A DNA stretch of 32,686 nucleotides from positions 1-32,686 of the forward strand of contig CAJQQZ010000002.1 of the NCBI GenBank assembly GCA_905480575.1, read 5' to 3'. Position 1 is the stretch's first letter; the number at the start of each line of letters is the position of its first letter. The notes below the pieces were generated by a model. That model was not told the origin of the DNA. It saw only the letters and a list, made by a program, of their open reading frames with translations, and ran no database searches. Source of the DNA: an uncultured Alphaproteobacteria bacterium (GTDB taxonomy: Bacteria > Pseudomonadota > Alphaproteobacteria > UBA7985 > CAJQQZ01). Shown piece after piece: positions 682-2,936 of this stretch. Both the position numbers and the translations under genes were made by a program.

Positions 682-1107
682 CTAGAGCTTGGTCACTAAA
701 TGCAGCCAGTAACAAAGCTCCGGTCGAGTAGGACCGACCACGTCGTTCGCGCCGGTGTTGTGGATAACTTCACCCCCATTGCAGATCACCACATGCCCAA
801 CTCCATCGCCCGTTTCGCCCCCTAAGAGGTAAGGTTGGTCAGGGCAAAAATGCGAAAATAGTGTTGCAGCCTCTTCCGCTGATGCCGTCGCAGTCGAATA
901 GAACGGTATAACTGCCAGGCCGTACCCTTTTGTAGAAAGGTAACCACGCATTACTTCGTTTTGGCGTCGACCTGTCTCATCGGGCCTGTGCGAATGGGGG
1001 ACTTCTTCAGGGTCCACATCGAGCAAACAGGCGACGCTTGTTCTAAAGCAGTCTCCGTAGATCCCGTTCTCCGGGTCGTGTTTGTATTTTTGCTTGTGCG
1101 GTGTCAT
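682..1107 (-). CDS. Papain-fold (C39-like) small protein of phage or island type
   Basis: This 141-residue protein has the N-terminal signature GDCFRTSVACLLDVDPEEVP (from residue 18, with Cys20) and the later motifs GHVVICNGGEVIHNTG (His about 105). The pattern GDC-x(5)-A-x-LLD-EEVP, then GH-VV and VH-(N/D), recurs in small phage and prophage proteins. I associate it with a papain/C39-like fold in which the Cys and His would form the active pair. No signal peptide or membrane segment is present, so it should be cytoplasmic. The ATG has a good ribosome site, AAGGA, eight bases upstream. It stands alone in the island, with its own hairpin terminator and two operator-like repeats in front. Whether it acts on peptide bonds is unknown; the Asp/Asn third residue is uncertain. 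Confidence 0.62.
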   Translation of the reverse strand: MTPHKQKYKHDPENGIYGDCFRTSVACLLDVDPEEVPHSHRPDETGRRQNEVMRGYLSTKGYGLAVIPFYSTATASAEEAATLFSHFCPDQPYLLGGETGDGVGHVVICNGGEVIHNTGANDVVGPTRPELCYWLHLVTKL

Positions 1108-1122
1108 GCCGTGCGTCCTTTC

Positions 1123-1181
1123 GAGTTCGACAAATTCGCCTCGTGACTCCTGCGGGAAGTGCAGAGTTTGACGAATTTGCG
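1123..1181. repeat. Paired 18-bp repeat, possible operator
   Basis: GAGTTCGACAAATTCGCC (1123-1140) and GAGTTTGACGAATTTGCG (1164-1181) agree at 14 of 18 positions and lie 41 bases apart, close to four helical turns. Their cores CAAATTCG and CGAATTTG are also exact reverse complements. The pair sits directly upstream of the minus-strand island gene starting at 1107, where its promoter should be. An operator for an island regulator is the simplest reading, but no regulator is visible in the window. Confidence 0.3.
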
Positions 1182-1389
1182 GTTGTTAAGTCGTTGATTC
1201 CGACCTGTGCAATTCGGTCTTAAAATCCGTTTCGCTTTTTGAGTTTCGTTCAGTGGCCGTTTGTTGTACACGTGTACAAAATTAGGGTGTTTCTTGGACG
1301 TGTTTCTGTAATGTTCCGGGCTAAACGGTTTGCAGGCGAAAATAAAGTCGTGTAATTTCAAACAGTTAGCCTTAAGTTCAGCACAAATC

Positions 1390-1439
1390 CTACACTGGGG
1401 GTGAAGGGGTCGTAGGTTCAAATCCTGCCGTTCCGACCA
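1390..1439 (+). tRNA. tRNA-Pro(GGG) 3' half only: probable attachment site
   Basis: The sequence folds as the 3' half of a tRNA. It has an anticodon loop CTGGGGG (1395-1401, anticodon GGG at 1397-1399), a 3' anticodon stem TGAAG, a five-base variable loop, and a T-arm GTAGG-TTCAAAT-CCTGC (1412-1428). The acceptor strand CGTTCCG, discriminator A and CCA (1437-1439) follow. The matching acceptor CGGAACG and a D-arm are missing from the bases where they should be (from about 1363). The 5' anticodon strand CTACA has one mismatch to TGAAG, so homology starts near 1393. This is the footprint left by site-specific integration into a tRNA gene: the element lies to the left and the intact tRNA should be at its far end. 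The fragment itself cannot be a working tRNA. Confidence 0.8.
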
Positions 1440-1538: not shown

Positions 1539-2936
1539 ATGAGCGACATGAATTTCGATATTGCGATAATTGGCGGTGGTCCAGGTGGCTACGTGGCGGC
1601 GATAAGAGCCGCCCAACTTGGTTTCAACACAGTTTGCATAGAAAAACGCGGCGCTCTGGGTGGAACTTGCTTGAATGTAGGCTGTATTCCATCAAAAGCC
1701 TTGCTGCATTCATCCCATCTCTACGATGAAGCCAATGGGCACCTTGAAGAGCATGGGATCGGCATCAAGGGGTTGAGTCTTGACCTCTCCGCAATGTTGG
1801 CACGGAAAGATAAGGTTGTTGACGATCTGACCAAAGGTATTGAGTTCCTCTTCAAAAAGAACAAGGTGACTTACATCAAAGGTGCCGCATCCCTGCTAGG
1901 CGGTGGAAAAATCGCTGTTGAGGGGTCTGACGAGGTGTCCGCAAAGCACATCATCCTAGCTACTGGATCTGAAGTAACACCTTTGCCTGGTATTGAAATC
2001 GATGAAAAGCGGATTGTGTCCAGCACAGGTGCGCTGGAACTCAAAGAGGTTCCTAAAGAGTTAGTCGTTATCGGTGGCGGCGTGATTGGCCTTGAACTGG
2101 GTTCAGTGTGGAGCAGATTGGGTGCCAATGTCACCGTGGTTGAGTTCTTGGATCGAATTATCCCAGGCACAGACAGTGAAATTGCCAAGACTTTCCAGAG
2201 AAGCCTCAAAAAACAAGGTCTGAAGTTTAAACTCTCAACAAAAGTTACTGCTGCTAAGACTAAAGGAAAGAAAGTTAATCTGACGGTTGAGTCTGTAAAG
2301 AAGGGCACAAGCGAAGAAATGAGCGCCGACGCTGTTTTGGTTGCCATAGGCCGTCGTCCTTACGTCGAAGGCCTTGGGTTGGATGCTGCCGGTGTTGAGC
2401 TGACTGAGCGTGGCCAGATCAAGATTTCCGAGGGCTACAAAACAACCGCTGCTGGTGTTTACGCTATCGGCGACGTCGTCGAAGGACCAATGCTGGCCCA
2501 TAAAGCCGAAGAAGAGGGCGTGGTTCTTGTTGAGCTGCTTGCCGGTCAAAAGCCTCATTTGAACTATGGTCTGATTCCTGGGATCATCTACACAAATCCT
2601 GAAGTTGCAACAGTTGGCCAAACAGAAGACGAGTTGAAAGAAGCCGGTGTTGACTATCGCGTTGGTAAATTCCCGATGCAGGCCAATTCTCGGGCTCGAA
2701 CCTCTGGTGCTACCGATGGCATGGTGAAAATCATAGCAGATGCAAAAACAGACCGCGTCTTAGGTTGCCATATCATTGCTTCAGACGCAGGTGCATTGAT
2801 CCACGAAGCTATCGCTGTGATGGAGTTTGGTGGTTCAGCAGAAGATATCGCTAGAACCTGTCATGGTCACCCAACCTCGTCTGAAGCAGTTAAAGAAGCA
2901 GCTTTAGCCGTTGATGGTCGTCCTATTCATATTTAG
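1539..2936 (+). CDS. lpd: Dihydrolipoyl dehydrogenase (E3)
   Basis: This 465-residue flavoprotein reoxidises dihydrolipoyl groups of 2-oxoacid dehydrogenase complexes with NAD+. It shows the FAD-binding GGGPGG (12-17) and the redox disulfide in GGTCLNVGCIPSK (Cys44 and Cys49). The NAD-binding motif VIGGGVIGLELG, the second FAD motif VYAIGDV, and the C-terminal His-Glu active-site segment CHGHPTSSEAVKE are also present. Length and motifs are standard. The annotated ATG at 1539 is preceded only by a weak TTGGGA; a second ATG lies three codons on. In related bacteria this gene usually follows odhA-odhB. Here accessory DNA and a tRNA fragment lie immediately upstream, so it must be transcribed from its own short leader or from a promoter at the island edge. 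xerC converges on it with 11 bases between stops. Confidence 0.97.
   Translation: MSDMNFDIAIIGGGPGGYVAAIRAAQLGFNTVCIEKRGALGGTCLNVGCIPSKALLHSSHLYDEANGHLEEHGIGIKGLSLDLSAMLARKDKVVDDLTKGIEFLFKKNKVTYIKGAASLLGGGKIAVEGSDEVSAKHIILATGSEVTPLPGIEIDEKRIVSSTGALELKEVPKELVVIGGGVIGLELGSVWSRLGANVTVVEFLDRIIPGTDSEIAKTFQRSLKKQGLKFKLSTKVTAAKTKGKKVNLTVESVKKGTSEEMSADAVLVAIGRRPYVEGLGLDAAGVELTERGQIKISEGYKTTAAGVYAIGDVVEGPMLAHKAEEEGVVLVELLAGQKPHLNYGLIPGIIYTNPEVATVGQTEDELKEAGVDYRVGKFPMQANSRARTSGATDGMVKIIADAKTDRVLGCHIIASDAGALIHEAIAVMEFGGSAEDIARTCHGHPTSSEAVKEAALAVDGRPIHI

Follow-up and report, generated by a model that had tools for sequence, protein, structure and literature searches.

A displaced tRNA-Pro(GGG) 3′ half as the probable attachment site of a temperate phage element in an uncultured alphaproteobacterium

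Phage insertion into a tRNA gene is a common and well-understood route of settling in the chromosome, and partial tRNA copies arise in genomes for other reasons too. The window analyzed here, a stretch of 32,686 nucleotides that is the entire contig C2 of a 189-contig genome (G000), carries the 3′ half of a tRNA-Pro(GGG) gene near its left end, which raises the question of how this half came to lie there. The fragment is very probably an attR, formed when a temperate tailed phage, or a phage-derived element, entered the tRNA-Pro(GGG) gene of this uncultured alphaproteobacterium.

The tRNA fragment and its intact counterpart

The fragment lies at positions 1393-1439 on the forward strand, starts at the last anticodon-stem base, runs through the anticodon loop to CCA, and is identical over 47/47 bp to positions 31-77 of the intact tRNA-Pro(GGG) gene at G000:C153:24591-24667. 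The initial annotation had described a perfect tRNA 3′ half at 1390-1439. Those coordinates are correct, with 49/50 bases matching the intact gene, and the description as perfect holds for 1393-1439 but not for 1390-1392, where two matching bases are followed by the single mismatch at 1392. The absence of a D-arm and 5′ acceptor strand was likewise borne out, as neither precedes the fragment, ARAGORN found no complete tRNA in the window, Rfam at gathering scores found no tRNA there, and a permissive Rfam search of positions 1-1600 returned only a chance hit. With up to three mismatches allowed, the window contains a single occurrence of the 47-mer and 100 dinucleotide-preserving shuffles contain none, which puts the match far above chance expectation. 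A 170-aa open reading frame on the reverse strand (1104-1616) runs antisense across the fragment, has no Pfam match, and is most likely spurious.

A search for a second copy in the same genome recovered the full tRNA-Pro(GGG) on a separate contig, C153, next to an integrase gene in the right orientation, in agreement with the earlier proposal that both lie beyond the left end of the window. The 3′ end of the integrase gene starts 62 bp past the tRNA CCA, on the opposite strand, and the C-terminal 159 aa are present before the contig ends. Matches to PF00589 (2.2e-13) and phrog_1 (1.7e-19) identify the product as a predicted tyrosine integrase. The element lies to the right of the tRNA on C153 and to the left of the fragment in the window, and the resulting order, tRNA(+)-element-fragment(+)-lpd, is the layout expected from integration into a tRNA 3′ half. 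On C153, the intact tRNA is preceded by ihfA and merR (names from sequence reading and synteny), relatives of which adjoin tRNA-Pro in 12 of 29 loci from other genomes (L006-L034, including a few whose proline anticodon is different), so this neighborhood looks like the usual home of tRNA-Pro(GGG).

This arrangement resembles the tDNA islands collected by Islander, where 2083 of 3919 candidates have an anticodon-centred site and 3760 have a 3′ fragment (PMC4383910). As described there, these islands carry a tyrosine integrase and are bounded by an intact tDNA and, at the opposite end, by a 3′ fragment that points the same way. Here, too, the intact tRNA and the 3′ fragment occur in one genome and in the same orientation, with the C-terminal part of a tyrosine integrase within the element. 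The Islander signature also places tRNA and fragment 2-200 kb apart on one replicon; unlike Islander-type islands, this element spans a contig gap, and its length is not measurable.

Viral contigs sharing the attachment core

IMG/VR supplied the strongest evidence. A scan of its 2.9 million contigs with a degenerate att-core pattern matched two contigs and no others, 3300025890_000063 (L177) and 3300034374_010341 (L176). A protein search of the same collection with the integrase fragment, independent of the pattern scan, returned 116 relatives, and the top two (59%) belonged to these same two contigs. Their att cores are identical to that of the host element over 46 bp, and the exact 47-mer has no match in the viral contigs because the phage core begins one base later. 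Both carry the half tRNA with the integrase on its CCA side, in the same position and orientation as in the host element, and no intact tRNA in the stretch read; in L177, the half tRNA is 74 bp from the integrase stop. The remaining DNA of both contigs has diverged from the host element.

L177 additionally has the window arm in common, on the side of the core opposite the integrase. L177:2524-2654 matches window positions 1105-1235 (86% over 131 bp, E 1e-39), and L177:2922-2994 matches a second conserved stretch at 608-680 (79% over 73 bp), both collinear and on the same strand relative to the core. The best score of the arm match was 156 bits, compared with a maximum of 30 in 200 shuffles. 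With both arms around one core, this related phage contig shows the attP arrangement to be expected if one phage type has its two arms at the left end of the window and the right end of C153. The core and integrase arm of the host element recur in L176, whose match to the window is limited to the core and four bases past it, leaving the window arm unmatched.

An endolysin gene lies near attP in both viral contigs. In L176/L178, the attP neighborhood also encodes a tail fibre, a central tail protein, and recombination functions of the Erf, RecE, and NinB types. The largest open reading frame of L177 belongs to phrog_9880, of unknown function. Judged by their annotations, the genes near these attP sites are those of tailed temperate phages. 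The earlier description of positions 1 to about 1390 as the distal end of an island therefore holds and can be sharpened: because L177 holds counterparts of the window's left arm, of the core, and of the integrase arm in one piece, the element is better described as a prophage or phage-derived element than as an unspecified island. The attachment site also ties two unassigned viral contigs to a type of host, namely alphaproteobacteria that carry this tRNA-Pro(GGG), and illustrates how half a tRNA at a contig end can lead to a partner contig and a related free phage.

In the proposed mechanism, the tyrosine integrase would recombine the phage attP with the chromosomal tRNA gene, which serves as attB. 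The attP would carry the tRNA 3′ half from the anticodon loop to CCA, the phage copy would rebuild a complete tRNA on contig C153, at the left end of the element (attL), and the displaced 3′ half would end up next to lpd as the attR of the right end (window 1393-1439). We infer the strand-exchange chemistry at these att sites.

Visible ends, missing interior, and competing origins

The element is visible for 544 bp on C153 and for 1,392 bp on C2, and both contigs end inside it. Because its interior is missing from the assembly, we infer the link between C153 and C2, which would together represent one insertion. A full viral integrase used as query of the host assembly matched the C153 fragment only, and the remainder of the integrase is not in the assembly. 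The largest protein of L177 found no match there, an endolysin query gave two matches, both weak and local, and the last 113 bases of C153 matched only themselves.

In the window, the visible right end of the presumed prophage covers positions 1-1392, of which 608-1392 have phage homology and 1-607, where none was found, are assigned by position. Within it, a 141-aa open reading frame on the reverse strand (682-1107) matches phrog_5845, of unknown function (E 9.2e-27), and 12 phage records gave tblastn matches to it at 30-40%; no relative was found in L176-L257, including the stretches read of the two att-core contigs, or in the viral-contig scan. The DNA upstream of this frame is the strongly conserved, non-coding stretch at 1105-1235, which contains two similar short boxes, gttcgacaaattcgc and gtttgacgaatttgc, and is perhaps a phage promoter or regulator site. 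Nearer the contig end, positions 49-273 form a repeat with 91% identity to contig C166 (L144:12412-12635), seen with the first 160 window bases as query, and the open reading frames near the C166 copy resemble pieces of an IS256-like transposase. Positions 281-305 match a 25-bp unit present in two copies at L144:11256-11307.

The unseen interior leaves room for an array at tRNA-Pro(GGG), and the fragment could end a different integrative element, such as a satellite, an ICE/IME, or the second element in a tandem array, with the C153 integrase not its partner. The Islander report describes tandem insertions at a single tRNA for sites of this kind (PMC4383910); even so, L177 unites homologues of the window arm and of the C153 arm around one core, which argues for a single element type and makes a separate element improbable. 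A chimeric left contig end, assembled through the 47-bp repeat from reads of free phage (attP) and uninserted chromosome (attB), is a shade less credible again. The assembly does stop within the element, after 544 bp on one contig and about 1.4 kb on the other, with the interior absent, and loss of an interior can occur when phage and host coverage differ, but both contigs extend well beyond the core on each side with no break at the core, and the att pairing implied would be the same even for a chimera. A tRNA pseudogene, or a chance or non-mobile partial duplication involving no mobile element, can be dismissed with near certainty, since an integrase adjoins the parent gene, the element side has phage-arm homology, and two phage contigs carry the same half tRNA.

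Integration of a temperate phage or phage-derived element is retained as the very probable origin of the fragment. A more specific version, put forward tentatively and at somewhat less than even confidence, is that C153 and the window end form the two ends of a prophage of an unnamed temperate-phage lineage, with its integrase and tRNA-Pro attP common to the two uncultivated viral genomes, and that its interior is missing because the phage was excising or was variably present in the population sampled.

The chromosomal site and related integration systems

The first chromosomal gene outside the element is lpd, encoding dihydrolipoyl dehydrogenase (1539-2936, forward strand; PF07992, PF02852), which belongs to an lpd-xerC-DUF484-fsa-priA cluster common to several loci of the class. 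The class norm is for lpd to follow sucAB, and sucB lies within 3 kb upstream of lpd in 47 of the 71 class loci having more than 1.5 kb upstream (80 loci fetched). In this genome and its congener G001, sucAB is found at another place with no lpd after it, and lpd stands apart from sucAB in this genus (L145, L152). In three genomes of family f2, which is in the same order, a divergent tRNA-Pro(GGG) is present upstream of lpd at a distance of 0.9-1.8 kb; a fourth has a contig end 179 bp past the tRNA (L156), and a fifth has short flanks only (L034). The f2 arrangement makes linkage of tRNA-Pro and lpd plausible, and the two would have been neighbors before the insertion. The empty-site comparison involved G001, the sole congener analyzed (84% complete), the other families of the order being too diverged to show this insertion. 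The tRNA and the ihfA-merR-tRNA region had no match in G001, and the neighbor of xerC there is an S8-protease-like open reading frame (by reading) rather than lpd, so this genome is uninformative on the empty site, and the comparison revealed no relative with one.

The biology proposed here is ordinary and textbook in kind, and the same att site has been published for other phages. Phage phiLM21 and the phiLM21-like prophage phiSM11-017 of Sinorhizobium use tRNA-Pro(GGG) as attB, with an attP that includes about 45 bp identical to the tRNA 3′ end (PMC12429752, PMC5537653). According to the same sources, these are, like the element proposed here, temperate phages with a tyrosine integrase whose integration restores the tRNA (PMC12429752, PMC5537653). 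Their Sinorhizobium hosts differ from the host here, the C153 integrase matched 17 phage records, none of them phiLM21 itself, and Phi3LM21, which targets tRNA-Pro(CGG), matches that integrase at only 25%.

Across 385 genomes of the class, a search with the integrase (E 1e-20) matched 13 genomes, including its own, at 17 places. Excluding the home locus, a tRNA gene of varied identity lies beside 10 of 16 places, and the other six have no tRNA in their 1.5-kb flanks. In nine of the ten tRNA-adjacent places, the tRNA and integrase genes have their 3′ ends toward each other, the exception being L163 (orientations from coordinates). Two of the ten have tRNA-Pro(CGG), and one of these adjoins the closest of these relatives (44%). 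The signature recurs in another genome of the class, G014, where half of the tRNA-Pro(GGG) is duplicated on a different contig over 53 bp at 98%, the two loci being L260:4815-4867 (G014:C3) and L261:5931-5983 (G014:C12). On the element side of the half tRNA, L260:3306-4640 holds a tyrosine integrase gene that encodes arm, central, and catalytic domains.
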